From: Gammaproteobacteria bacterium
Lineage (GTDB): Bacteria > Pseudomonadota > Gammaproteobacteria > Steroidobacterales > Steroidobacteraceae
Assembly (NCBI GenBank): GCA_004297335.1
Contig: SCUD01000175.1
Span: 1-64,000, forward strand
Reading direction: 5' to 3'
DNA length: 64,000 nucleotides
The translations under genes were made by a program, and so were the position numbers. Shown here in pieces: positions 5,410 to 45,057 of this stretch (within the stretch, counting starts at the first letter, position 1; each line of letters opens with the position of its first letter). The notes beneath the pieces are model-generated. The model ran no database searches, was not told the origin of the DNA, and saw only the letters and a list, made by a program, of their open reading frames with translations.

Positions 5410-6687
5410 ATGAGCGGCCGGTACATCCCTCGCCTGGTCGACCGGGAGCTTGATGAGCTGCTGCCGCAGCTGCCCGCGATCGCCCTGGAAGGTCCGAAGG
5501 CTGTCGGCAAGACCGAGTCGGCCGGGCGCCGTGCGAGAACGATCCATCAGCTCGATGATCCCGCTCAGCGGGCGATCGCCGAAGCGGATCCCGCGCGTCT
5601 GCTGGGCGGCACGCCGCCGATCCTGATCGACGAATGGCAGCGGGTTCCAGCAGTTTGGGACGCCGTCCGGAGGGCGGTGGACCAGGGCAGCCCACCGTCG
5701 CAGTATCTGCTCACCGGTTCGGCGAGTCCCGCGGCCGCCCCGACACATTCCGGCGCCGGACGGATCGTGACGGTGCGCATGCGACCGCTGTCGCTGGCCG
5801 AGCGCGGGCTCGACACGCCGACTGTCAGCTTGCAGGACCTGTTGGCGGGGGGCCGCCCGGAAGTCACAGGCAGGACGAATGGCCGGCTCGACGACTACGT
5901 CGACGAAATCGTCCGCTCGGGACTGCCGGGCCTGCGCTCCTATCGGGGACGCGCTCTACGCGCGCAACTCGACGGCTACATGAACCGCATCATTGATACC
6001 GACTTCGAGGAACAGGGCCTGCCGGTGCGCCGCGCGGGGACGCTGCGGCGCTGGATCTCCGCCTATGCGGCGGCCACGGCGACCACGGCTAGCTACGAGA
6101 CGATTCGCGATGCTGCGACGGGCGGCCAGCAGGACAAGCCCTCGCGCAGCGCGACCCAGCCGTGGCGCGACGTGCTCGAGAGGATGTGGATTCTCGATCC
6201 GCTGCCCGCATGGCTGCCGACACAGAATTATCTGAACCGACTGGCCCAGCTACCCAAGCATCACCTGGCCGACCCGGCACTAGCCGCGGCCGTTCTCGGC
6301 TTCGATGCGAACGCGCTGCTCCAGGGCGTCGAGGCCGGACCGAGCATCCCTGGTAGCGACCTGTTGCTGGGTCGCCTGTTCGAGTCGCTGGTCACGCTGA
6401 GCCTGCGTGTCTACGCGCAGGCGGCCGAAGCGCAGGTTCGTCACCTGCGGCTTCACGGTGGCAGCCAGGAGGTGGATCTGATCGTCGAGCGCAGCGACCG
6501 GCGCATTCTCGCCGCCGAAGTGAAACTGGGTCGCACGGTCGCTGAGGACGACGTCCGCCATCTGCACTGGCTGCGCGAGAGAATTGGCGCGGACCTGCTC
6601 GATGCGGTCGTAATCAATACGGGGCCGGAGGCCTATCGACGCAAGGACGGGATCGCCGTCATTCCGGCGTTCTTGCTCGGCCCGTGA
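5410..6687 (+). CDS. AAA-type ATPase with DUF4143 domain
   Basis: This belongs to a widespread prokaryotic family of stand-alone AAA ATPases with a C-terminal DUF4143 nuclease-like domain; the biological role is unsettled. The 425-residue protein shows Walker A GPKAVGKT (28-35) and Walker B ILIDEWQ (71-77). It also has the YLLTGSAS sensor strand (with an LTG motif) and, near the C-terminus, EVDLIVERSDRRILAAEVKLG. That last stretch is the PD-(D/E)xK-like core of DUF4143. The ATG at 5410 has no strong ribosome binding site. The 95 bp upstream is AT-rich compared with its surroundings and may carry a promoter. A second, divergent member of the family lies at 13103-14461. Confidence 0.88.
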   Translation: MSGRYIPRLVDRELDELLPQLPAIALEGPKAVGKTESAGRRARTIHQLDDPAQRAIAEADPARLLGGTPPILIDEWQRVPAVWDAVRRAVDQGSPPSQYLLTGSASPAAAPTHSGAGRIVTVRMRPLSLAERGLDTPTVSLQDLLAGGRPEVTGRTNGRLDDYVDEIVRSGLPGLRSYRGRALRAQLDGYMNRIIDTDFEEQGLPVRRAGTLRRWISAYAAATATTASYETIRDAATGGQQDKPSRSATQPWRDVLERMWILDPLPAWLPTQNYLNRLAQLPKHHLADPALAAAVLGFDANALLQGVEAGPSIPGSDLLLGRLFESLVTLSLRVYAQAAEAQVRHLRLHGGSQEVDLIVERSDRRILAAEVKLGRTVAEDDVRHLHWLRERIGADLLDAVVINTGPEAYRRKDGIAVIPAFLLGP

Positions 6688-8746: not shown

Positions 8747-9091
8747 ATGATCGAGACTCACCACGCCTACAGTCGCCCGCTTCCGGTATGCCGGGCGCTC
8801 CGCAAGCTGGGTCGCGACCTCCGCGAGGCCCGCCTGCGACGGCGCATTCCGGCGGCCGTCGTCGCTGAGCGTGCCTCGATCAGTCGGACCACGCTGTTCA
8901 AGCTCGAGCAGGGCGATCCTGGTGTTTCGATCGGGAGCCTGGGCACCGTGCTCTTCGTCCTCGGCATGGAGGAACGCCTCGCTGAAATTGCCGACATTCG
9001 GAGCGACGAACAGGGGTTGGCGCTCGATCAGCAGCGCCTTCCCCAACGTGTCCGGGCGAGAGGCCGGCGTGCTGCACGGGAGCCGGGCTGA
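8747..9091 (+). CDS. hipB: HipB-like XRE-family antitoxin/repressor
   Basis: This is a helix-turn-helix repressor that pairs with the HipA kinase toxin. In its 114 residues the XRE domain spans about residues 15-75: ALRKLGRDLREARLRRRIPA, AAVVAERASISRTTLFKLEQ and GVSIGSLGTVLFVLGME. The tail (DIRSDEQGLALDQQRLPQRV) resembles the HipB tail before hipA. The stop codon and hipA start overlap as TGATG. It is presumably autoregulated through the palindrome at 8708-8732. Confidence 0.85.
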   Translation: MIETHHAYSRPLPVCRALRKLGRDLREARLRRRIPAAVVAERASISRTTLFKLEQGDPGVSIGSLGTVLFVLGMEERLAEIADIRSDEQGLALDQQRLPQRVRARGRRAAREPG

Positions 9092-10320
9092 TGGAACGCG
9101 AGACCTGCGTCCACGTTGAGTTGGGCGGCGGGACCGAGCCGGTCGGCCGCCTCTATACGCACGTGCGTCGGGGCCGGGAAACGGTCACCTTTGAGTACGA
9201 GACGGCATGGCTGAATCACGCCGAGCGCTTTGCGCTGGACCCGGCACTGAAACTCGGGCCCGGCCCCTTTCATTCCCGCGCGGACAGGCTACTCTTTGGC
9301 GCGATCGGCGACTCCGCGCCCGATCGCTGGGGCCGCGCACTCATGCGCCGCGCTGAACGGCGGCGTGCCGCGGCCGTGCCTGAAACACCGCGTACGCTCT
9401 TCGAAATCGACTACCTGCTGGGAGTCAGCGACGAGGCGCGCATGGGCGCGCTCCGCTTTTCCGATCAGCCGGGTGGGCCGTTCCTCGCTCGGCCGGGAGA
9501 GACTTGCATACCGCCGCTCGTGGACCTGCCGCGCCTGCTCGCGGCCGCAGGACGCGTCGTGGCAGAAAACGAAGACGATGAGGACCTGCGACTACTGCTG
9601 GCGCCGGGCTCATCGCTGGGTGGCACACGACCAAAGGCCACAGTGCGTGAACCGGATGGCCGACTCGCACTGGCAAAGTTTCCGCATCGGGCCGATGAGT
9701 GGAACACGGTCGCCTGGGAGGCCACGGCACTACTCCTTGCAGAGAGGGCCGGCATCGAGGTTCCGCGCTTTCGCCTCGAGACGATCGCAGGCCAGGATGT
9801 CCTCGTTCTTCAGCGCTTCGACCGTGACGGCGCTGCCCGCATCCCGTACCTGTCCGCAATGAGCATGGTCGACGCAACGGACCATGAGACGCGCTCCTAT
9901 CTCGAACTGGCGGATGCGCTGCGCCGGTACGGCGCGCGTCCGGCGGCGGACCTTCGCCAGCTCTGGCGGCGCATCGTCTTCACCGTGCTCGTATCGAATG
10001 TGGACGATCACCTGCGCAATCACGGCTTCCTCTTCACCGGCATGAGGGGATGGATTCTCTCGCCGGCCTTCGACCTCAACCCCGTCCCGGTCGATGTGCG
10101 GCCACGGGTCCTCAGCACCGCGATCGACGAGGAAGACCCGACGGCGTCGCTCGATCTGGCGCTGGGCGTCGCCGGGTATTTCGATCTCGATAGCGACGCG
10201 GCGCGGCAGATCGCGGGTGAAGTCGGTCGCGCGGTGGCGGACTGGCACCGGGTGGCAGCAGGCCGGGGTATTGGCAAAGCCGAAATCGAACGCATGGAGT
10301 CCGCGTTCGCCAACGTGTGA
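9091..10320 (+). CDS. hipA: HipA-family serine/threonine kinase toxin
   Basis: HipA phosphorylates targets such as glutamyl-tRNA synthetase to trigger dormancy. The 409-residue protein has the HipA N-terminal subdomain, then the Gly-rich ATP loop SSLGGTRPK (174-182) that family members use as P-loop and autophosphorylation site. The catalytic loop NVDDHLRN (303-310) and metal-binding FDLN (327-330) are intact, and FPHRADEWNTVAWE carries the partner of the ATP site. Length fits full-length HipA. It is coupled to hipB by TGATG. The stop is one base from the stop of the convergent E1 beta gene, marking the right edge of the accessory block. Confidence 0.9.
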   Translation: MERETCVHVELGGGTEPVGRLYTHVRRGRETVTFEYETAWLNHAERFALDPALKLGPGPFHSRADRLLFGAIGDSAPDRWGRALMRRAERRRAAAVPETPRTLFEIDYLLGVSDEARMGALRFSDQPGGPFLARPGETCIPPLVDLPRLLAAAGRVVAENEDDEDLRLLLAPGSSLGGTRPKATVREPDGRLALAKFPHRADEWNTVAWEATALLLAERAGIEVPRFRLETIAGQDVLVLQRFDRDGAARIPYLSAMSMVDATDHETRSYLELADALRRYGARPAADLRQLWRRIVFTVLVSNVDDHLRNHGFLFTGMRGWILSPAFDLNPVPVDVRPRVLSTAIDEEDPTASLDLALGVAGYFDLDSDAARQIAGEVGRAVADWHRVAAGRGIGKAEIERMESAFANV

Positions 10321-13102: not shown

Positions 13103-14461
13103 ATGAGCGACCCATCCCCACAGCCCTGGCGGGCCCGGCTGGCCAGGCTGCTCGCTGCGTCTCTGGATGCGCCGATCGTGAATTCGACGCCGCGCCGACT
13201 GCATGGAGCACTGGCCCTGCCCGGAAAGGCCACCGCAGTGATCGGCATGCGGCGGGCCGGAAAGACCACCTTCCTGCACCAGATGCGGCGGGAACGGCGG
13301 GATAGCGGGACGCCGATCGAGCGGCTCGTATATCTGAACCTGGAGGACGAGCGGCTCGCAGGTCTCGGCGCCGAGCACCTGCGCCTGCTGCCGGAAGAGT
13401 ACTACCGGCGGTTCCCGGAATTGCGCCAGCGGGAGACGGTGACCTGGTGCTTCGACGAAATCCAGGTGGTACCGGGATGGGAGCGATTCGTGCGGCGCCT
13501 GCTCGACAGCGAGCGCGTCGAGATTTTTGTCAGCGGCTCGTCGGCGGCACTACTGAGCCGGGAGATTGCCACGGCGATGCGTGGGCGCGCGTGGGAAGTA
13601 CTGCTGCATCCCTTCAGCTTCGAGGAATACCTGAGGCACCACCATCTTGCGGTACCGGAGCACCCGCACTTCCTCGCGCCTCGACAGCAATCTGCTCTCG
13701 CCAGGGCCTTGCAGGACTACCTGGCCTGCGGCGGGTTTCCGGAAGTACAGGGCCTCGATCCAGCAACGCGCCGGCAGGTGCTGCGTGACTACGTCGATGT
13801 TGCGACGCTGCGCGACATTGTGGAGCGCCACCGGGTCAGCAATGTCATCGCGCTGCGCTGGCTGGTGCGGCACTTGCTCGGTAACGCGGGCTCGTTGTTC
13901 AGTGTCGAGAAGTTCTTTGCCGACCTGAAGTCGCAGGGCCTGCGCGTATCGAAGGACACGGTCCACGAACTGCTGGCGCATGTCGAGGACTGCTTTCTCG
14001 CGCGTGTGGTCTGGATCGATGCGGGTTCTGAGCGGCGGCGGATGGTAAATCCGCGCAAGATCTATCCGGTGGACCCTGGGTTGATCCCGGTGTTCGACCG
14101 TACCGGGCGCGCGAACATCGGTCATGCGCTGGAAACAGTCGTGATGCTCGAACTGGAGCGGCGGCGCTGCGAGGTGAACTACGTGCGCACCGGGAACGGC
14201 CTGGAAGTGGATTTCCTCGCCCGTGCACCGGATGGCAGCGAGGCACTGATCCAGGTCTGCGCGGACGCCAGCGATCCACAGACGCTGGCGCGCGAACTGC
14301 GCGCGCTGCAGGAGGCCCGGGCGCTGTATCCGCGGGCCCGCGCGCTGTTGCTGACGCTGGTAGCCGGGGAGTTGCCTGCGGGGATTCCATCCGGCGTCGA
14401 GATGCTGCCGGCCTATGAGTGGCTGCTGTCCGGCACCCCCGTCCTCCCGGGCACCCGCTGA
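13103..14461 (+). CDS. AAA-type ATPase with DUF4143 domain (second copy)
   Basis: The 452-residue protein has Walker A GMRRAGKT (48-55) and the LVYLNLEDERL strand after it. Walker B is WCFDEIQVVPGWE, followed by the sensor IFVSGSSAALLSRE. A winged-helix stretch (SVEKFFADLKSQGLRVSKDT) precedes the DUF4143 core, with GNGLEVDFLARAPDGSEALI and then QVCAD. In the nuclease-like core the usual E-x-K appears as Q-V-C, so the catalytic Lys position is lost. Function is unknown for the family. It is only distantly similar to the copy at 5410. The stop codon directly abuts the stop of the convergent ATP-grasp gene, leaving no intergenic DNA. Confidence 0.87.
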   Translation: MSDPSPQPWRARLARLLAASLDAPIVNSTPRRLHGALALPGKATAVIGMRRAGKTTFLHQMRRERRDSGTPIERLVYLNLEDERLAGLGAEHLRLLPEEYYRRFPELRQRETVTWCFDEIQVVPGWERFVRRLLDSERVEIFVSGSSAALLSREIATAMRGRAWEVLLHPFSFEEYLRHHHLAVPEHPHFLAPRQQSALARALQDYLACGGFPEVQGLDPATRRQVLRDYVDVATLRDIVERHRVSNVIALRWLVRHLLGNAGSLFSVEKFFADLKSQGLRVSKDTVHELLAHVEDCFLARVVWIDAGSERRRMVNPRKIYPVDPGLIPVFDRTGRANIGHALETVVMLELERRRCEVNYVRTGNGLEVDFLARAPDGSEALIQVCADASDPQTLARELRALQEARALYPRARALLLTLVAGELPAGIPSGVEMLPAYEWLLSGTPVLPGTR

Positions 14462-15792: not shown

Positions 15793-17526
15793 TCAGCCGC
15801 GGATGATCCGCGGCAGCAGCATCTGGTGGCGCGGGCAGATCGACTTCGGGTTCTGGTAGGCGCTGCCGGCGAAGGCCTGCAGGTAGCCACGCAGTGCCTT
15901 CAGGTCGACGATCTCGTCCACGAGGCCATGGCGCGCGCACCAGGCCGGCCGCGAGGTCTCGTAGTACTTCCGCGCCATCTCGTTCATCTTCGCGGCGATC
16001 GGCTCGAGCGGCTTGCCGGCGTCCTTGTCCTTGACCGCGCGGCGCGCATAGGTGGCGACCGCCGCGGTCTCACCGTGCATCACGTAGATCTCAGTCGCCG
16101 CAGTGCCGAGCGTGAAGGCGTTCTGCCGGTTGGCCGTCGGCCCACCCATGATGTAGTGCGCCGCGGCGCTGCCCTTGCGCAGCACGACGAGCATCATCGG
16201 CACGTCCACCTGCTGGATGGAATACACGAGGCTGGCGCCGAGACCGAGCAGCTCGGCTTTCTCCGCCGCATCGCCGACGTCGATGCCGCTGGTGTCCTGC
16301 AGCCAGATTACCGGCACGCGATCGCGCCCGCAGTGGGTCACGAACTCGTTCATCTTGATCAGGCCCTGGCGGTACAGCTTGCCGCCGATGCCGGGGTAGT
16401 CCGCATATTCCGGATAGCCGGCCGGCAGCAGGCCCTGGCGGTTGCCGATCACGCCGATCAGCATGCCGTCGATCTTGACCAGTCCGGTGTAGATTTCCGG
16501 GCCGTAGTCCGGGCGGAACTCCAGGTGCTCGCTGCCGTCCACCACGCGCGCAAGGATCTCCTCGAGCACGTAGGGTTCCTTCTGGTTGAAGGGCAGCAAA
16601 TGATAGAGATCCTCCGCCGGCAGCGCGGGCTCCGCCGGCGCGGCGACGCGGAAGAACATCGGGTCGTAGGCCGGGATCGCGCGCATGTAGTCCTTGATGC
16701 CGTCGAGGACGCCCCGTTCCTCGTCGCAGACATGCGTGAAGAAGCCGGTCTCGTTGTAGTGCGTCTCGACGCGACCGGGTGGCCGCTCCTTGAGATCGCG
16801 CGTGACGTTGATCAGCTGCTCGAGTCCCTCGACGTCAAAGCCGCCACGCGGCGACATGCCTGAGACGATGCCGGCGCCGCCGACGGCGATGTTGGCGTCC
16901 TTGTGCGCGATCAGGATGGTCGGCGTGATGCCCTGGTAGCCGCCGCCGGCCGGATTCGTGCCGTAGATGCCGGCGAGGATCGGGATGCCGGCCTGCTCGA
17001 GCTCGGCGTGCCGGAAGAACGGCGCGCCGGAGCCGCGCCGCCCGGCATAGAACTTCTCCTGGTCGGGCAGCTTCACGCCGCTGCAGTTGACCAGCCAGAC
17101 GAGCGGGATGTGCAGCCGCTTCGCCAGGTCAGTGACGCGCAGGATGTTGTCCGGCTGCCCGGCGATCCAGGCCCCGGCAAGCACCTTGTTGTCGAAGCCG
17201 ATGATCACGGCCCAGCGCCCCGCGATCCGGCCGAGGCCATCGACCACGTTGGTCGTGCCTTCCTCGTTCTCCTCGGGGTTGTAGAGGCTGTGCAGCGGAT
17301 GCCAGGTGCCCGGATCGACCAGGTACTCGAGCCGCTGCCAAATGGTCAGTCCGCCGCGCGCGTTGATCGTCTCGGCCGGGATCCCGACCTTCTCCCGCTC
17401 CTTGCGCAGCGCCGCGATCCCGGCCTCGACGGTCTCGAGGCTGGCGCGACTGTCCTTCGAGCGCGCAATGCGGTTCTCGCGGAGCGGCTTGCCGAAGCCG
17501 GGCATCTTCTCGAAATACGGTCTCAT
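15793..17526 (-). CDS. gcdA: Glutaconyl-CoA decarboxylase, carboxyltransferase (alpha) subunit
   Basis: GcdA transfers the carboxyl group from glutaconyl-CoA to biotin on the carrier subunit, giving crotonyl-CoA. The 577-residue protein follows the GcdA pattern end to end. It opens with YFEKMPGFGKPLREN, then VLAGAWIAGQPDNILR, NPAGGGYQGITPTILIAHKD and AVGGAGIVSGMSPRGG (oxyanion loops of the crotonase-like fold). The second half has YRQGLIKMNEFVTHCGRDRV, QDTSGIDVGDAAEKAELLGL and the C-terminal AYQNPKSICPRHQMLLPR. The length is close to the roughly 587 residues I recall for characterised GcdA. GAGG lies upstream of the ATG and overlaps the end of the dehydrogenase gene. The adjoining beta, gamma and biotin subunits support a membrane sodium-pump complex. 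Confidence 0.9.
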   Translation of the reverse strand: MRPYFEKMPGFGKPLRENRIARSKDSRASLETVEAGIAALRKEREKVGIPAETINARGGLTIWQRLEYLVDPGTWHPLHSLYNPEENEEGTTNVVDGLGRIAGRWAVIIGFDNKVLAGAWIAGQPDNILRVTDLAKRLHIPLVWLVNCSGVKLPDQEKFYAGRRGSGAPFFRHAELEQAGIPILAGIYGTNPAGGGYQGITPTILIAHKDANIAVGGAGIVSGMSPRGGFDVEGLEQLINVTRDLKERPPGRVETHYNETGFFTHVCDEERGVLDGIKDYMRAIPAYDPMFFRVAAPAEPALPAEDLYHLLPFNQKEPYVLEEILARVVDGSEHLEFRPDYGPEIYTGLVKIDGMLIGVIGNRQGLLPAGYPEYADYPGIGGKLYRQGLIKMNEFVTHCGRDRVPVIWLQDTSGIDVGDAAEKAELLGLGASLVYSIQQVDVPMMLVVLRKGSAAAHYIMGGPTANRQNAFTLGTAATEIYVMHGETAAVATYARRAVKDKDAGKPLEPIAAKMNEMARKYYETSRPAWCARHGLVDEIVDLKALRGYLQAFAGSAYQNPKSICPRHQMLLPRIIRG

Positions 17527-17536
17527 CGATCTGCCC

Positions 17537-18697
17537 TCAGTCGCGGTTCGGGGTGAAGCCCAGTGCCATGCCCGCGATGATGACCTTCTGGATGTTGGAG
17601 GTGCCCTCGACTACCTGCAGTGACTTGGAGTCGCGGTAGAAGCGCTCGGCCGGATACTCGGTGGAGAAGCCGTAGGAGCCGTAGATCTTCATGCACTCGT
17701 TCGCGGCATGCACGGCCGCCTCGGAGGCCGCGTACTTGGCGACCGAGGTCTCGAACTGGTTCGGCTTGCCCTGGTCCTTCAGCCACGCGGCCCGGTAGAC
17801 CAGCATCTGCGCGGCCTGATGCTCGACCGTGAGCTCGGCGATCTGCGCCTGGACCATCTGGTGCTGCGAAATCGGCTTGCCGAACTGGGTGCGCTCGTTG
17901 GCGTACTGGATCGCCAGGTCGAGCGCCCCGCCGGCGACGCCCAGCGCGCCGGCCGCGCAGCCAAGGCGGGTCTGGTTCAACTGCCACATGCAGATGCGGA
18001 AGCCGTCACCGGGCCTGCCCAGCACGTTGTCCTTCGGCACCTTCATGCCGTCGAAGGTGAACTCACCGGTCGGCGCGCACTTGAGGCCGAGCTTGGTCTC
18101 GATCGGACGCGCGCTGCAGCCGGGCATGTTCTTCGGCTCGATGAGGAAGGCGGTGATGCCCTTGTTGCCGGCCGCACGGTCGGTGTAGGCATACAGCAGG
18201 CCGGCATCGCCGACATGCGCCTGCGAGATCCAGATCTTGCCGCCGTGCACCTCCCAGTGGTCGCCCTTGTCGACGGCATAGGTGCGCATGCTGGCGACAT
18301 CCGAGCCGGTGTTCGGCTCGGTCATGGCGAAGAAGCCGAGCTGCGTGCCCGCGACCCAGCCGGGCACGTACTTCTCCTTCTGCGCCTGCGTGCCGAACCG
18401 GCACACGGTCAGCGCGGGACCCAGGTTCTGCATGTTGAACGGCAGCCGCCACGAGGCCGAGACCCTGGCGATCTGCTCGGCCATCAGGACCGACTCGCTG
18501 AAGCCCATGCCGCTGCCGCCGAATTCCTCGGGCACGGCGCAGGAGAAGAACCCGAGCCCGCCCATCCGGGCGACGCGGTCGGCGCGAAACTCGTGGTTGC
18601 GCTCCTCTTCCTCGAGCGTGGGCGCGATGTCCTCGGCGGCGAAGCGCCGTGCGGTTTCCTGGATCAGGAGCTGGTCTTCGGTCAGTGCAAAGTTCAT
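17537..18697 (-). CDS. Acyl-CoA dehydrogenase, probably non-decarboxylating glutaryl-CoA dehydrogenase
   Basis: This FAD enzyme likely oxidises glutaryl-CoA to glutaconyl-CoA without decarboxylation, leaving the CO2 release to the Gcd pump. The 386-residue protein has GFFAMTEPNTGSDVASMRT, GDHWEVHGGKIWISQAHVGD, RTQFGKPISQHQMVQAQIAE and the catalytic base region SLQVVEGTSNIQK (Glu in VEGT). From memory it resembles the dehydrogenase described from Desulfococcus, including the AYTDRAAGNKGITAFLIEP stretch. Its place between the gcdB and gcdA genes is strong context. The alternative is another short-chain or dicarboxylyl-CoA dehydrogenase, so substrate assignment is an inference. Confidence 0.82.
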   Translation of the reverse strand: MNFALTEDQLLIQETARRFAAEDIAPTLEEEERNHEFRADRVARMGGLGFFSCAVPEEFGGSGMGFSESVLMAEQIARVSASWRLPFNMQNLGPALTVCRFGTQAQKEKYVPGWVAGTQLGFFAMTEPNTGSDVASMRTYAVDKGDHWEVHGGKIWISQAHVGDAGLLYAYTDRAAGNKGITAFLIEPKNMPGCSARPIETKLGLKCAPTGEFTFDGMKVPKDNVLGRPGDGFRICMWQLNQTRLGCAAGALGVAGGALDLAIQYANERTQFGKPISQHQMVQAQIAELTVEHQAAQMLVYRAAWLKDQGKPNQFETSVAKYAASEAAVHAANECMKIYGSYGFSTEYPAERFYRDSKSLQVVEGTSNIQKVIIAGMALGFTPNRD

Positions 18698-18734
18698 CGT
18701 CTTTCTCGTTTCAGCCGGATTCGATGGCTGCTGC

Positions 18735-19940
18735 TCAGCGCAGCAGCGTGACGTAGATGGCGGCGATGATCGCCGAGGTGATGACGCCGCAGATGCTTGC
18801 GCCCATCGCCCACGGCAGGATCACGGCGAACTTGTTGGCCGCGCGGACCTCCTTCTGGGCCACCTTGGCCGTGGTCGGGATGCAGGAGATGCCGGCGATG
18901 CCGATCGCCGGGTTGAAGCTGCGGCCGCTCGCCAGCCAGACCACGTAGCCGCCGATGATGCCGCCGATGCCGGACAGCAGCAGGGCGAGGATGCCGAACA
19001 CCAGCAGCAGGACGACCTTGGGGTTCAGGATGGTGCCGGCCTCGCACAGGACGCCGAGCAGCAGTCCCAGGAAGAACGTCGCCCCGTACAGCACTGGCCC
19101 GCCGATGAAGTCGACGAAGGGCTTCGGGCCGGCCTCGCGGATGACGATGCCGAGGAAGAAGGACATGAACAGCGGCGCCGCCACCGGCAGCAGCAGGCAC
19201 AGCAGCGTATTGATGATCACCGCGAAGGTGACCTTCTCCGCCGCGGAGACGCTCGGAATCTGCTTCGCATCCATCTTGATCCCGCGCAGCTGCTTCGGGA
19301 CCATGAACCGGACCAGGTAGGGATAACCCGCGTAGGTCAGGCTCAGGTAGAGGTAGGCGACGATCGTGATCGGCACGAACAGGTCGTCGGCCAGGATCAG
19401 CGAGGTGTAGAGCACCATCGGGCCGTCGGCACTGCCGATCATCGCCACCGCCGCGGCCTCCTTGAAGGTGAAGCCGACGGCGACCGCGAGCGGGAAGGTC
19501 AGCAGCGTGCCGAGTTCCGCGAACAGCGCGATGCACATGCTGCGGAACGGCGAAATCAGCATGTAGCCGATGTCGGTGATGACGCCGATGCCCATGAACA
19601 CGAGGCAGGCGATCAGGCCATTGCTGAACGTGAAGGTGTAGATGGGCTGCAGGAAATTGATCTGCAGCTCGTTGACGAGCTCGGTCGTCTCGCTCGCCAT
19701 CGGGTCGAGGAAGATCGTGCCCATCACCGAGCCGGACAAATAGAGGACCGCGGCATTCACGGAAGTCATGCCGATGCCCATCGGGATCATGATCAGCGGA
19801 TCGAGCGTGCCCTTGACGCCGAGCCAGACGAAGGCGATGCCGAGCAGGATCAGCACGATCCGCGCGACCATGATCGCCGGTTCGGCGGCGACCAGCGTCG
19901 CGACGCCCTGGAAGATGGACAGCAAATCAATCTCTGGCAC
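18735..19940 (-). CDS. gcdB: Na+-translocating decarboxylase beta subunit
   Basis: The integral membrane subunit decarboxylates carboxybiotin and exports Na+. The 401-residue protein is almost entirely hydrophobic helices. It has the two family ion-path motifs: AMIGSADGPMVLYTSLILAD (the conserved Asp region of OadB/GcdB) and NPAIGIAGISCIPTTAKVAQ (the Asn/Ser region). I start it at a GTG (19940) with AAGGGGAG eight bases upstream, giving the N-terminus VPEIDLLSIFQGVATLV. The longer open frame above it covers the small subunit. It sits 2 bp after the small-subunit stop and 37 bp before the dehydrogenase. Confidence 0.93.
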   Translation of the reverse strand: MPEIDLLSIFQGVATLVAAEPAIMVARIVLILLGIAFVWLGVKGTLDPLIMIPMGIGMTSVNAAVLYLSGSVMGTIFLDPMASETTELVNELQINFLQPIYTFTFSNGLIACLVFMGIGVITDIGYMLISPFRSMCIALFAELGTLLTFPLAVAVGFTFKEAAAVAMIGSADGPMVLYTSLILADDLFVPITIVAYLYLSLTYAGYPYLVRFMVPKQLRGIKMDAKQIPSVSAAEKVTFAVIINTLLCLLLPVAAPLFMSFFLGIVIREAGPKPFVDFIGGPVLYGATFFLGLLLGVLCEAGTILNPKVVLLLVFGILALLLSGIGGIIGGYVVWLASGRSFNPAIGIAGISCIPTTAKVAQKEVRAANKFAVILPWAMGASICGVITSAIIAAIYVTLLR

Positions 19941-19942
19941 GT

Positions 19943-20104
19943 TCAGCTCCCCTTGCCTGGCTCGCTGGCTGCCGGTGCCGGCGGACGCAGCCTGCGGATG
20001 GCGTTGAAGATCAACTGAATGACGCCGGCGACGAGCAGTGAGATCAGCACCGACAGGCCGGCCACGAACAGCATCAGCTTGAACGCGCCCATGAAGTCTT
20101 CCAA
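19943..20104 (-). CDS. gcdD: Small membrane subunit of the decarboxylase (OadG/GcdD-like)
   Basis: A 53-codon frame between the biotin carrier and gcdB encodes one hydrophobic helix, FKLMLFVAGLSVLISLLVAG, followed by a basic stretch and a Pro/Ala-rich tail (RRLRPPAPAASEPGKGS). That is the layout of the small anchoring subunit of sodium-pumping decarboxylases. Two starts are possible. The TTG at 20104 has GAGGAG nine bases upstream and the ATG at 20092 has GGAAG close by. I use the TTG; the ATG would give 49 residues. Its stop is 2 bp from the gcdB GTG. The sequence is short, so the call depends on position and topology. Confidence 0.75.
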   Translation of the reverse strand: MEDFMGAFKLMLFVAGLSVLISLLVAGVIQLIFNAIRRLRPPAPAASEPGKGS

Positions 20105-20193
20105 GTTCCGGTACTCCTCGATGCGGCGGGGCCTGCGGGCCGGGCAGCAGCGGCTCGCCCGCTCCCCGGGGGCGGGAGCGATGCGGTGGTGGA

Positions 20194-20409
20194 TTATTCG
20201 ATGACCAGCAGCAGCTGGTTGGATTCGACTGCGGCGCCCGGCTCGACCTTGATTGCCGTAATCCGGCCATCGGCAGGAGCGAAGATCGGATTTTCCATCT
20301 TCAGGGCTTCCAGGATCATCAACTCGTCCTCGTTGCTGACCTGGTCGCCGACCTTGCAGAAGATCTCCGTGATCTTCCCCGACATCGGTGCCGTGACATT
20401 GACCGCCAT
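20194..20409 (-). CDS. gcdC: Biotin carrier subunit of the decarboxylase
   Basis: This biotin/lipoyl-attachment domain carries CO2 between the carboxyltransferase and the membrane beta subunit. The 71-residue protein MAVNVTAPMSGKITEIFCKV has the biotinylated Lys in ILEALKMENPIFAP. The usual motif is EAMKM, so Leu replaces the first Met here, a change that biotin ligases often tolerate. The ATG at 20409 has GGGAGGAGAAGG upstream; the longer frame to 20472 is not family-like. Unlike many GcdC proteins it lacks an Ala/Pro-rich linker and is just the carrier domain. It is the first gene of the operon. Confidence 0.9.
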   Translation of the reverse strand: MAVNVTAPMSGKITEIFCKVGDQVSNEDELMILEALKMENPIFAPADGRITAIKVEPGAAVESNQLLLVIE

Positions 20410-20517
20410 CCGCCTTCTCCTCCCAAAGGAACTGCCAAGGACCCTGACCCGGACCCCTGGAGCCCCGATCAACGGCCTATTCTATCCTGTAGGGGAGCCG
20501 ACGGCACCCCGGGTGCC

Positions 20518-20547
20518 CCCTTGAACTCCGGAAGCTGGTCTCCATCT
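20518..20547 (+). promoter_or_regulatory. Sigma-32-like heat-shock promoter
   Basis: CCCTTGAA (20518-20525) and CTCCATCT (20540-20547), 14 bp apart, fit the E. coli heat-shock consensus CTTGAA and CCCCATNT with one mismatch in the -10. It lies 50 bp before the first Hsp20 start, the expected place. A GGCACCC-C-GGGTGCC palindrome (20503-20517) precedes it, shared with the divergent gcd operon; its role is unknown. Confidence 0.6.
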
Positions 20548-20597
20548 CTGGAACATGCCCGCGAGGGCGTGGAATTACGGGATCAGGAGGAGCGGTC

Positions 20598-21041
20598 ATG
20601 TTTGGAATTTCAAGGGTCTTCGACGGCGGCCTGCTGCAGGAATTCAGGCGCCTCGAGCAGGAGATGGACGAGATGCTGGGGCGCTCGCCGTGGCCGGCCG
20701 CCACCCGCCCGGCCTCGCGCGGGACCTACCCGCCGATGAACATCGGGACGACGCCGGACAACGTCGAGGTGTACCTGTTTGCCGCCGGGCTCGATCCGGC
20801 GACCGTCGATATCTCGGTGCAGCAGAACCTGCTGACGGTGTCGGGCCAGCGCAAGGTCCCGGAGCAGAAGAAGGCTACCTGGTATCGGCAGGAGCGCTTC
20901 GACGGCGCGTTCCGTCGGGTCATCAGCCTGCCCGACGACGTGGACCCGGATCGGGTCAGCGCACGCTACCGGGACGGGGTGCTGCAGATCACGGCCGGCC
21001 GTCGCCAGGCCGCGAAGCCCCGGCAGATCGAGATTCACTGA
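20598..21041 (+). CDS. Small heat-shock protein (Hsp20), first of two
   Basis: This is an ATP-independent holdase chaperone of the alpha-crystallin type. The 147-residue protein starts MFGISRVFDGGLLQEFRRLE. Its alpha-crystallin domain begins with PPMNIGTTPDNVEVYLFAAG and continues through VDISVQQNLLTVSGQRKVPE, and ERFDGAFRRVISLPDDVDPD contains the family's 'GxFxRxxxLP' loop. It ends RYRDGVLQITAGRR, where the A-x-x-x-G-V-L motif is intact. GGAGGAG precedes the ATG. A sigma-32-like promoter lies just upstream. The second Hsp20 follows 15 bp later. Confidence 0.92.
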   Translation: MFGISRVFDGGLLQEFRRLEQEMDEMLGRSPWPAATRPASRGTYPPMNIGTTPDNVEVYLFAAGLDPATVDISVQQNLLTVSGQRKVPEQKKATWYRQERFDGAFRRVISLPDDVDPDRVSARYRDGVLQITAGRRQAAKPRQIEIH

Positions 21042-21056
21042 AAGCGGAGGCCGATC

Positions 21057-21461
21057 ATGAGCAATACACAGGAAGTCACGAAGCAGACTGAGGCCGGGGC
21101 CCAGGGCCGGCCGCAGGCGCGGGAGGCCGGCTACACGCTGGTCCCGCCGGTGGATATCTTCGAGGATGCGGACGGCGTCAGCCTCGTGCTCGACATGCCC
21201 GGCGTCACCAAGGACCGTCTCAGGATCGAGGCCGAGCGCGAGGCGCTCGTGGTCGAGGGCGAGGCCGCGATCAACGTGCCGGATGGCATCGAGCCGGCCT
21301 ACGCCGAGATCCGCTCGACGCGCTACCGCCGCAGCTTCACGCTGACCAGCGAACTCGACGCGGATCGCATCGAGGCGAGCCTGAAGGACGGCGTGCTGTC
21401 CCTGCGCATCCCCAAGCGTGCGGAACTGAAACCGCGCCGGATCGAGGTCCAGGCCGCCTGA
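21057..21461 (+). CDS. Small heat-shock protein (Hsp20), second
   Basis: The 134-residue Hsp20 has the alpha-crystallin domain VDIFEDADGVSLVLDMPGVT, then DRLRIEAEREALVVEGEAAI, RSTRYRRSFTLTSELDADRI and a closing ASLKDGVLSLRIPKRAE. The N-terminal tail is hydrophilic (MSNTQEVTKQTEAGAQGRPQ), unlike the hydrophobic tail of its neighbour. The two may therefore differ in assembly or substrate preference. It lies 15 bp behind the first gene with its own GGAGG and is probably co-transcribed from the same heat-shock promoter. The frame ends just before the M20 peptidase. Confidence 0.92.
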   Translation: MSNTQEVTKQTEAGAQGRPQAREAGYTLVPPVDIFEDADGVSLVLDMPGVTKDRLRIEAEREALVVEGEAAINVPDGIEPAYAEIRSTRYRRSFTLTSELDADRIEASLKDGVLSLRIPKRAELKPRRIEVQAA

Positions 21462-42734: not shown

Positions 42735-43547
42735 ATGCCCGTAGCCGTTCCCACGACCTCGGCGAACTTTCGCCGCCTCAGCGCCCGGCTGCGGGGGCTG
42801 GTCGGCCGCGCCATTGCCGATTTTGGCATGATCGGCGAGGGCGACCGGATCATGGTCTGCCTGTCGGGCGGCAAGGACTCCTTCACGCTGCTCGACCTGC
42901 TGCTGTCGCTGCGGCGCGCGGCGCCGGTGCGGTTCGAACTGGCCGCCGTCAACCTCGACCAGAAACAGCCCGGCTTCCCGGAGCGCGTGCTGCCGGAATA
43001 CCTGGAGGGGCTCGGGGTTCCGTACCAGGTCATCGAACAGGACACCTACCGAGTGGTGCGGCGCGTCATCCCGGAGGGCCGCACGCAGTGCGGGCTGTGC
43101 AGCCGCCTGCGCCGCGGCGCGCTGTATCGTCACGCGCGCGCGCAGGGCTTCACGCGCATCGCCCTCGGCCATCATCGCGACGACATCATCGAGACGCTGT
43201 TCCTGAACCTGTTCCATGGCGGGCGCCTCAAGGCCATGCCGCCGAAGCTGCTGGCCGAGGATGGCAGCAACGTGGTGATCCGGCCGCTGTGCTACGTGCC
43301 GGAACGCGAGATCGCCCGCTATGCGCGGGCCCGCCAGTTCCCGATCATTCCCTGCTCGCTGTGTGGCTCGCAGCCGAACCTGCAGCGGGTCGCGATCGGT
43401 CGCATGCTCGAACAATGGGAGCGCGAGCATCCGGGCCGTGTGGACTCGATCTTCACCGCCATGCGGAATGTCCAGCCGTCGCATCTCGCTGATCCGCAGC
43501 TGTTCGATTTCCGCAGTCTCGAACGCCGGGCCACCGCAGGCAGCTGA
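42735..43547 (+). CDS. ttcA: tRNA 2-thiocytidine biosynthesis protein TtcA
   Basis: TtcA thiolates cytidine 32 of some tRNAs using a [4Fe-4S] cluster and ATP. The 270-residue protein has the PP-loop SGGKDS (44-49), the cluster cysteines in [16 protein letters not shown] and [14 protein letters not shown] (two CxxC sites), and [20 protein letters not shown]. Normal length is about 270-310 residues. It starts with an ATG at 42735 and is followed one base later by the next gene's GTG. It could be part of the downstream operon or just a neighbour. Confidence 0.95.
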
Positions 43548-43548
43548 C

Positions 43549-45057
43549 GTGCCCGAGGGTTTCCCACCGCCGCTGCCGAACAGCTACTGGGTCGAGCCTG
43601 GTCGCCTGCTCGCCGGCGAGTATCCGGGTGCCGCGAGCGAGGAGGGGACGCGCTCGCGGCTGAAGCGGCTGCAGGACGCCGGCATCGACTGCTTCATCGA
43701 CCTGACGATGCCGGACGAGCTCGAGGCCTACGATCGCCTGCTGCCGGGTCCGCACGCGCGCCGCGCGGCCAGCTACCTGCGCCAGCCGATCCGCGACCAT
43801 GGGCTGCCGGAAACGGCCGCGCAGATGGTAGCGATCCTCGATGCCATCGACGCGGCGCTGGCACAGGACCGGCATGTCTACCTGCACTGCCGTGCGGGCA
43901 TCGGACGCACCAACCTGGTCATCGGCTGCTGGCTGGCCCGCCGTGGTCTCGGCGGCCCGGCGGCGCTCGCACGCCTGAACGAGCTGTGGAGTGCCAGTGC
44001 CCGGTCGGAATCGTGGCCGTCGGTTCCCGAGACTGAGGCCCAGGCTGATTTCGTCCTGGCCTTCCGCGGGACACCGGCCGTGCGGCCGGCCGCAGCGACT
44101 CCGGGCCCCGGCGCCGGCAGCCTGCACGCACGCTGCCGCGGACTGCTCCTCGGCCTCGCGCTGGGCGATGCCCTGGGCCAGGCTGCCGCCGGCCGGCGCG
44201 CCGGTACGTTTCCGGCGCTCAGGGACCTCGAGGGCGGTGGACCGCACGCGTTGCCCGCGGGGGCCTGGTCGGACAAGACCGCGATGGCGCTGTGCCTCGC
44301 CGCCAGCCTGACGGAGCGCGATGCCGTGGATCCGACCGACCAGCTGCATCGCTACCTGCGCTGGCAGAAGGATGGCGAGTGGAGCAGCACCGGGCGCTGT
44401 GTCGGCATCAGCGCCGCAACTGCGCGGGCGCTCGCGACCGCCCAGTGGTCCCGCAATCCGTTCGCAGGTTCGCACGATCCGGCCACTGCGGACCGCGAGC
44501 CGCTGGCACGCATCGGCCCGGTCGCGGCCTTCCTGTGCGCCGATCCCGCCGCCGCGGTAGCGGCGGCGGTGGATTGCGTCCGCGTGACCCACCAGGCACC
44601 GGTCGCGCTCGAGGCCGCGCGTTACTTCGTGGCCCTGCTCGTCGGTGCGCTGCGCGGCGCGTCGAAGGAGGAACTGCTCGCGCCGCTGTACACGCCGGTT
44701 CCGGGGCTGTGGGAAAGGGCGCCGCTGCGGCCCGAGATCCACGCGATCGCGCTCGGCGCCTGGCGCGACCAGGATGCCCGGCGGAGCGCGCGCGCCGGCC
44801 AGGCGGCCGGAGCCCTGGGGCTGGCCCTGCGGTTGTTCGAACGCGGCGCAGGACTCACGGACTGCCTGTTGCAGGCGGCCAACCTCGGGCGTGAGGCCGA
44901 CGCCAATGCGGCGATCGTCGGGCAGCTCGCGGGAGCCTGTTACGGTGCGACGGAGCTGCCGGCCGGCTGGCTGCAGAAGCTCGCGCTGCGCAACTCGATC
45001 GAGACGCTGGCGGAAGGCCTGTGGTCTGCAGCCCGGCGTCGCGGTGCCGGGCCATGA
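43549..45057 (+). CDS. Fusion of dual-specificity phosphatase and ADP-ribosylglycohydrolase-like domain
   Basis: The 502-residue protein joins two domains. Residues about 10-160 are a Cys-phosphatase: DLTMPDELEAYDRLLPG supplies the acid Asp, and HVYLHCRAGIGRTNLV is the CX5R loop (Cys 114, Arg 120). Residues about 190-500 resemble ADP-ribosylglycohydrolase (DraG): GLLLGLALGDALGQAA, then AWSDKTAMALCLA and NLGREADANAAIVGQLAG. In active enzymes the middle motif is T/S-D-D-T and the last D-x-D-T/S. Here they are S-D-K-T (241-244) and R-E-A-D-A (448-452), so metal ligands are partly lost. The start is a GTG one base after ttcA. It overlaps the zinc peptidase start (ATGA). Confidence 0.85.
   Translation: MPEGFPPPLPNSYWVEPGRLLAGEYPGAASEEGTRSRLKRLQDAGIDCFIDLTMPDELEAYDRLLPGPHARRAASYLRQPIRDHGLPETAAQMVAILDAIDAALAQDRHVYLHCRAGIGRTNLVIGCWLARRGLGGPAALARLNELWSASARSESWPSVPETEAQADFVLAFRGTPAVRPAAATPGPGAGSLHARCRGLLLGLALGDALGQAAAGRRAGTFPALRDLEGGGPHALPAGAWSDKTAMALCLAASLTERDAVDPTDQLHRYLRWQKDGEWSSTGRCVGISAATARALATAQWSRNPFAGSHDPATADREPLARIGPVAAFLCADPAAAVAAAVDCVRVTHQAPVALEAARYFVALLVGALRGASKEELLAPLYTPVPGLWERAPLRPEIHAIALGAWRDQDARRSARAGQAAGALGLALRLFERGAGLTDCLLQAANLGREADANAAIVGQLAGACYGATELPAGWLQKLALRNSIETLAEGLWSAARRRGAGP

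Follow-up and report, generated by a model that had tools for sequence, protein, structure and literature searches.

The question raised by the locus described here is why one cell keeps two routes from glutaryl-coenzyme A (CoA) to crotonyl-CoA, and whether O2 switches between them. Within a stretch of 64,000 nucleotides (hereafter the window; positions 1 to 64,000 of contig SCUD01000175.1, assembly GCA_004297335.1) from a gammaproteobacterium of the family Steroidobacteraceae, an operon at positions 15793 to 20409 encodes an acyl-CoA dehydrogenase, Acd, and the subunits of a predicted Na+-pumping glutaconyl-CoA decarboxylase, Gcd. Since the same genome, 3.96 Mb in 187 contigs, also encodes the ordinary decarboxylating glutaryl-CoA dehydrogenase, GcdH (contig C49, 6571-7722), the operon represents a second glutaryl-CoA route. 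We propose that it is probably a two-step, Na+-exporting replacement for the decarboxylating dehydrogenase, most likely serving anaerobic benzoyl-CoA breakdown and of betaproteobacterial origin. According to the available text of two papers, Na+-transport decarboxylases are exclusive to anaerobic bacteria (PMC2881705), and the decarboxylating enzyme is the one used by facultative anaerobes, the split, Na+-pumping route being that of obligate ones (PMC5852087). The gene set of this genome, which holds nitrate reductase and COX1-family genes together with both routes, breaks the rule as stated there; both routes are likewise held by 16 of 48 further genomes, including that of Ramlibacter lithotrophicus RBP-1.

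All five genes named in the initial annotation (carrier, small membrane, beta and carboxyltransferase subunits, and an acyl-CoA dehydrogenase) were found, as a single minus-strand run that fills exactly this span. In the order of transcription they encode a GcdC-like biotin carrier protein of 71 amino acids (20194..20409), a small one-helix membrane subunit of 53 amino acids (19943..20104), a carboxybiotin decarboxylase or Na+ pump beta subunit of the MadB-like type (401 amino acids; 18735..19940), Acd, the predicted non-decarboxylating glutaryl-CoA dehydrogenase (386 amino acids; 17537..18697), and GcdA, the glutaconyl-CoA:biotin carboxyltransferase subunit (577 amino acids; 15793..17526), with intergenic gaps of 89, 2, 37 and 10 bases. 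The last two were assigned from profile or Pfam matches, solved structures and trees, and for Acd also from an alignment. The acd and gcdA genes were observed together in 27 of 33 alpha-, beta- and gammaproteobacterial loci (L011 and L020 being counted as betaproteobacterial), four of the remaining six ending at a contig edge, which indicates a gene association far beyond chance; GcdA, Acd and the carrier recur together across the loci of relatives. Here and below, L numbers denote GcdA loci, G000 is the present genome and G152 is the other GcdA-positive genome of its order.

For Acd, the best match among solved structures was the glutaryl-CoA dehydrogenase 3mpi (378 bits; next 301), which we take to be the non-decarboxylating enzyme of Desulfococcus multivorans. 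Decarboxylation is presumably driven by Glu87, Ser95 and Tyr369, in the numbering of human glutaryl-CoA dehydrogenase. We aligned 50 Acd proteins (at least 42% identity to the window Acd; from the 80 GcdA loci and G152) and 17 GcdH proteins (at least 44% identity to the GcdH of this genome). The substrate-binding Arg was kept in every member of both sets, and the catalytic base Glu in all Acd and in 16 of 17 GcdH, with one gap. At the three positions, all 50 Acd carry A/G/S, L/V and V/L, and GcdH carries E/D, S/T and, in 14 of 17, Y (two L, one gap). The window Acd keeps R84 and E364 and has A77, L85 and V363 in place of the Glu/Ser/Tyr trio, which is complete in the GcdH of contig C49. A tree of 41 hand-picked rows, with long branches flagged for the other acyl-CoA dehydrogenases of the genome, united 22 Acd rows at 100/97. 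The signature residues, together with this common clade with the Desulfobacterota-type enzyme, bear out the likening of Acd to the non-decarboxylating type. Inside the clade, 11 proteobacterial rows grouped at 100/99, with one Spirochaetes row adjoining, apart from ten Desulfobacterota-type rows, and proteobacterial Acd thus appears as a separate subclade. By active site and descent, Acd would work like the non-decarboxylating enzyme of the NF045552 model (GlutCoADH_Des equivalog).

The identity of GcdA was likewise upheld, and the other Gcd subunits are atypical. The best solved structures for GcdA were 3gf3 (E 4e-220) and 1pix (E 9e-219), both GcdA, the next match being at 2e-38, and by these matches and by profile scores it belongs to GcdA and not to methylmalonyl-CoA decarboxylase. 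The carrier holds the biotin attachment Lys (LEALKMENP; Biotin_lipoyl PF00364, E 1.6e-17, scanned as an open reading frame with a 21-residue upstream extension) but, at 71 residues in all, no N-terminal anchor or Ala/Pro linker. The small subunit, read from a TTG start with GAGGAG upstream, stands at the place expected of GcdD and may be a minimal GcdD/OadG-like anchor: its best 19-residue mean hydropathy is 2.67, a short Pro/Ala-rich tail follows, no Pfam family matched at E 0.01, and relatives were found in loci L011, L016 and L024. The beta subunit, with a GTG start, matched OAD_beta (PF03977, E 1.7e-101; the scanned reading frame carried a spurious N-terminal extension) and is the sole OAD_beta gene of the genome by profile search. 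It is closer to MadB of malonate decarboxylase than to OadB-type subunits, and also matched the solved structure 6iva. In the alignment it keeps D172, N343, G347 and S352, at what we take to be the ion-transport positions of OadB, and has K359 where six OadB-like rows carry R. Among the 80 loci, a MadB-like beta was found in four, three of these with a related small subunit, and an OadB-like beta in 25, two of which (L025, L027) are weak matches only. Because a MadB-like beta lies beside GcdA, Acd and the carrier in the Desulfobacteraceae locus L055, this type of beta probably belongs to glutaconyl-CoA decarboxylase.

The gene content, active-site residues and phylogeny observed here, with the genome context, allow us to infer the reactions, the Na+ coupling and the growth condition. 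Acd would oxidize glutaryl-CoA to glutaconyl-CoA without release of CO2; GcdA would shift the carboxylate of glutaconyl-CoA onto the biotin of the small carrier, leaving crotonyl-CoA; and the MadB-like beta, anchored by the 53-residue membrane protein, would decarboxylate carboxybiotin and export Na+. The net predicted conversion is from glutaryl-CoA through glutaconyl-CoA to crotonyl-CoA and CO2, with Na+ moved outward, a form of energy saving mostly attributed to strict anaerobes. At the level of sequence, the combination of a dehydrogenase with a Na+-pumping decarboxylase, as first annotated, stands on the Acd signature and clade and on the identity of GcdA. The route would most likely serve anaerobic aromatic (benzoyl-CoA) breakdown in a facultative nitrate respirer, side by side with GcdH.

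The host had been annotated as apparently respiring, and it looks facultative from five COX1-family (heme-copper oxidase family) matches and from narG and narH, both over cut-off on contig C101. The COX1 family also takes in NO reductases. The same contig carries the benzoyl-CoA reductase genes bcrC, bcrB and bcrD over cut-off and bcrA just under (554 against 578), as well as 4-hydroxybenzoyl-CoA reductase-like genes under their cut-offs. From the COX1-family, narG/narH and bcr genes, the host probably respires O2 and nitrate and reduces benzoyl-CoA, and aromatics are the likely source of glutaryl-CoA in view of bcrCBAD, narGH and the heme-copper oxidase-family genes. Of the three sources first suggested, glutarate, lysine and aromatics, the genome thus offers evidence for the last only; genes for lysine and glutarate were not searched for. 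Three further HGD-D proteins are encoded near bcrCBAD (C101, 63219-64403, 90746-92032 and 94170-95249); the one at 63219-64403 resembles HadB, with a score under cut-off, and for the remaining two no NCBIfam match was obtained at 1e-10.

How widely the two routes occur together was seen in a survey of 50 of the 82 genomes with GcdA, 48 of them besides G000 and G152, with L043-L090 sampled (17 of these 48 loci, L066 and L084 included). The GcdH proteins of the 16 further genomes have 48-55% identity, the next matches reaching at most 39%; GcdH was found in none of the six gammaproteobacterial and none of the 15 other-phyla GcdA genomes, nor in G152. Within the stretch examined, GcdH was present in 8 of the 33 proteobacterial loci (an L027 match overlapping Acd being excluded), which points to the same substrate for Acd. 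In R. lithotrophicus RBP-1 (NZ_VTOX01000001.1; L016, 6036-13283; not marked as a metagenome-assembled genome, MAG), the two routes lie side by side: gcdH, on the minus strand, is followed by the gene of a GcvA-like LysR regulator, next come carrier, acd and gcdA, and last beta and small subunit, again on the minus strand. Counting G000 and G152, 18 of the 50 genomes had BcrB over cut-off, and COX1-family genes were present in 32 of the 33 alpha-, beta- and gammaproteobacterial relatives. In a gammaproteobacterial MAG (L039, 390-20191), the neighbours of the Gcd genes encode a salicylyl-CoA 5-hydroxylase-like enzyme, a Rieske dioxygenase-like protein, an ActP-like symporter and proteins of beta-oxidation. 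L039 alone was annotated; L084, L042 and L041 clustered with it, not each with every gene. The hydroxylase-like, Rieske dioxygenase-like and beta-oxidation neighbours suggest that Gcd in L039, L084 and their relatives may be used in oxygen-dependent aromatic pathways. Three of those beta-oxidation genes have homologues on contig C101 of the present genome (57-66% identity), and the salicylyl-CoA 5-hydroxylase-like enzyme was not found on that contig. GcdA at 80% identity was also observed in Rhodoplanes tepidamans (L032, 10001-11731) and R. elegans (L035, 330-2060), the examined stretches of which hold no Acd, carrier or beta gene, L035 ending just upstream; perhaps the Rhodoplanes GcdA is a lone carboxyltransferase.

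With respect to origin, the 246 genomes sampled from the order include two with GcdA, the present one and G152. Thirteen of these genomes have BcrB over cut-off (14 at E of 1e-30 or below), both GcdA-positive ones among them; the chance probability that both hold BcrB is 0.003, although one of the two is this genome itself, chosen for its operon. In the GcdA tree, which left out L034, L066, L027 and all but six other-phyla loci, the window sequence fell among Sterolibacterium-like Betaproteobacteria (99/98), and G152 outside the betaproteobacterial clade. In the RpoH tree, the present genome instead joined its congeners at 100/98 and G152 at 90/87; the order lay inside a beta/gammaproteobacterial clade with deep forks open, so that the label gammaproteobacterium is provisional. 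In the six congeners, neither operon DNA nor an Acd orthologue was seen in any (40 candidates scored per genome). Given the nesting in the GcdA tree against the RpoH grouping, and the operon unseen in congeners, it was most likely acquired from Betaproteobacteria, as judged from these comparisons.

Contamination of the bin is unlikely, and so is a chimeric junction at about 21.5 kb, as both right-hand synteny and composition speak against them. Synteny with two congeners resumes rightward from 21.5 kb over five tested genes. Tetranucleotide usage of window 13-21.5 kb correlated at 0.84-0.85 with contig C101 of the same genome and at 0.84-0.86 with congeners; for the nearest GcdA relatives, L012 and L011, the values were 0.53 and 0.66. 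Composition alone is not decisive, because the betaproteobacterial L016 and L022 reach 0.81 and the genome's own C49 and C97 fall to 0.76 and 0.62; C97 is less genome-like, at 0.62-0.67 against four window segments. Plasmid carriage was considered and rejected, with one match at E of 1e-80 or below among 72,556 plasmid records (Fusobacterium, 57.6%).

Around the operon, a divergent spacer of 188 bases (20410..20597) is the likely site of the predicted promoter and leads to two plus-strand Hsp20 genes (20598..21461), identified by Pfam and outside the system, just beyond which the congener synteny starts. To the left lie two AAA_14/DUF4143 genes (5410-6687 and 13103-14461) and, named by eye, a HipA-like gene with a small helix-turn-helix gene (8747-10320), perhaps forming a variable island. 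Further to the right, at 43321-45057, a DSP-type phosphatase domain is fused to an ADP-ribosylglycohydrolase domain. In G152 the operon (contig C27; L139, 9985-15966) lies a few genes from rpoH, with ftsX and ftsE recognized by eye, and the GcdH gene of the present genome sits near rpoH on C49; one route may have replaced the other locally near rpoH.

Several observations weigh against the proposed function and origin. Acd scored 441.5 bits with NF045552 against a cut-off of 470, and its proteobacterial relatives in L011, L016 and L039 were also below (436.8, 444.7 and 428.4), and the window Acd is for this reason not filed in that equivalog; the model accepted all four Desulfobacterota-type proteins tested (L044 767.9, L055 761.7, L076 784.3, L060 645.5). 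Specificity for glutaryl-CoA is thus a prediction for the whole proteobacterial subclade. The beta subunit misses both TIGR03136 (517.3 against 596.9) and TIGR01109, Na_pump_decarbB (181.8 against 190.6); with the former, the beta subunits of L011 and L055 scored 538.2 and 463.6. No beta was present in the often short stretch examined for 51 of the 80 loci. Models recover only part of the path between benzoyl-CoA and glutaryl-CoA, because the Dch-like gene beside the bcr genes is under cut-off (181 against 292.5) and the ring-opening hydrolase Oah gave no match over cut-off (best 104 against 464); ten candidates for ring opening from C97 and C101 were either BadI/MenB-like (252 against 467.6) or acyl-CoA enzymes of a general kind. 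For the link to BcrB within the order, G152 is the sole independent case (13 of 245; 0.053). As 9 of the 15 relatives of other phyla have COX1-family genes too, these do not cleanly single out an aerobic way of life. Only one of the six congeners is at least 90% complete.

Some of these points could be read in favour of other functions. Acd and GcdA might act with the same chemistry on another dicarboxylic acyl-CoA, such as a substituted glutaryl-CoA, as the separate, below-cut-off position of proteobacterial Acd and the varied aromatic genes adjoining relatives (salicylyl-CoA 5-hydroxylase-like, at 1039 against a cut-off of 1078, Rieske dioxygenase-like, enoyl-CoA hydratase) would allow; we regard this as unlikely, with the substrate Arg invariant, GcdA nearest to glutaconyl-CoA enzymes, and GcdH found in 8 of the 33 proteobacterial loci. 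That the best score of beta is with MadB could mean that malonate or methylmalonyl-CoA is what the pump decarboxylates, the dehydrogenase being unrelated to it. Both candidates were rejected: malonate decarboxylase with beta at 517 bits, under the cut-off of 597, and the alpha subunit of methylmalonyl-CoA decarboxylase (MmdA; TIGR01117) with the carboxyltransferase at 119.5 against 998.8. As the five operon genes include no other malonate-decarboxylase subunit, and a MadB-like beta also adjoins GcdA, Acd and the carrier in L055, we hold such a pump to be highly improbable.

The sequence sets no direction on a reversible chemistry, and a Na+ gradient might drive carboxylation of crotonyl-CoA for biosynthesis, as has reportedly been proposed for Syntrophus; the present host, given its nitrate reductase and COX1-family genes, has no evident need for it, and we give this reversal hardly any credence. 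Decarboxylation might also proceed without Na+ pumping, the beta and small subunits being inactive or serving another biotin enzyme. Such uncoupling would suit the loci with GcdA and no beta in the stretch examined, and Geobacter bemidjiensis is read as uncoupled in the available part of PMC2996986. In the present genome, the beta and small subunits lie inside the operon, the four ion-transport positions of beta are kept, and there is no second OAD_beta gene for another enzyme, so that uncoupling is very improbable. The Na+-exporting two-step route therefore remains our preferred explanation.

Acd with a Na+-pumping Gcd is a kind of system already known from strict anaerobes. An acd-gcdA pair is also described for Geobacter in the available text of PMC2996986, and that of PMC8500227 lists the two-step route merely as a pathway alternative. 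A route from glutaryl-CoA to glutaconyl-CoA was proposed for pimelate-degrading denitrifiers by Gallus and Schink (1994), as cited in the part of PMC4352924 available, and the idea is therefore not wholly new. In the literature searched, much of it in partial text and with most subscription journals not covered, we found no account of this gene set in facultative Proteobacteria, and no description of the proteobacterial Acd subclade, of a MadB-like beta with minimal carrier and anchor, or of the pairing with GcdH. More tentatively, and with somewhat less than even confidence, we suggest that Na+-pumping Gcd, far from being limited to strict anaerobes, has spread horizontally as a module among facultative and aerobic Proteobacteria; that it comes with an Acd subclade of its own and a beta of interchangeable type, MadB- or OadB-like; and that it forms a switchable energy-saving branch beside GcdH and, in some Gammaproteobacteria, serves oxygen-dependent CoA-thioester aromatic pathways.

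Among known systems, the non-decarboxylating enzyme of D. multivorans (3mpi; NF045552) is the closest structure by sequence, with the same residue replacements and a shared clade (100/97); unlike that type, the window Acd belongs to the proteobacterial subclade, scores 441.5 against 470, and comes from a host that has both nitrate reductase and COX1-family genes. MadB of malonate decarboxylase (TIGR03136, for which we take Malonomonas rubra to be the reference system) is the closest model for beta, but with a score under its cut-off and no other malonate subunit in the operon. Of the four components of the GcdABCD enzymes of Acidaminococcus fermentans and Clostridium symbiosum (1pix, 3gf3), GcdA, carrier and beta are matched here, and the small membrane subunit has a putative counterpart. 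The classical carriers are of 14-15 kDa with an anchor and an Ala/Pro stretch, and the classical small subunit is of about 95 residues, according to the available text of PMC7145394; in contrast, the present carrier is linker-less with 71 residues, the small subunit has 53, and beta is MadB-like. Outside strict anaerobes, transcripts of the same gene pair, acd and gcdBC, were detected in a benzene culture reducing nitrate, in which Peptococcaceae transcripts were dominant and, in the text available, no proteobacterial owner is named (PMC5852087). The 1994 proposal for denitrifiers (via the available part of PMC4352924) shares the intermediate, but as a proposal only. GcdH, as represented by the human enzyme (1siq) and by the C49 gene of this same genome, has the same predicted substrate, Arg and base Glu as Acd but, unlike Acd, keeps the polar trio and carries out oxidation and decarboxylation in a single active site.

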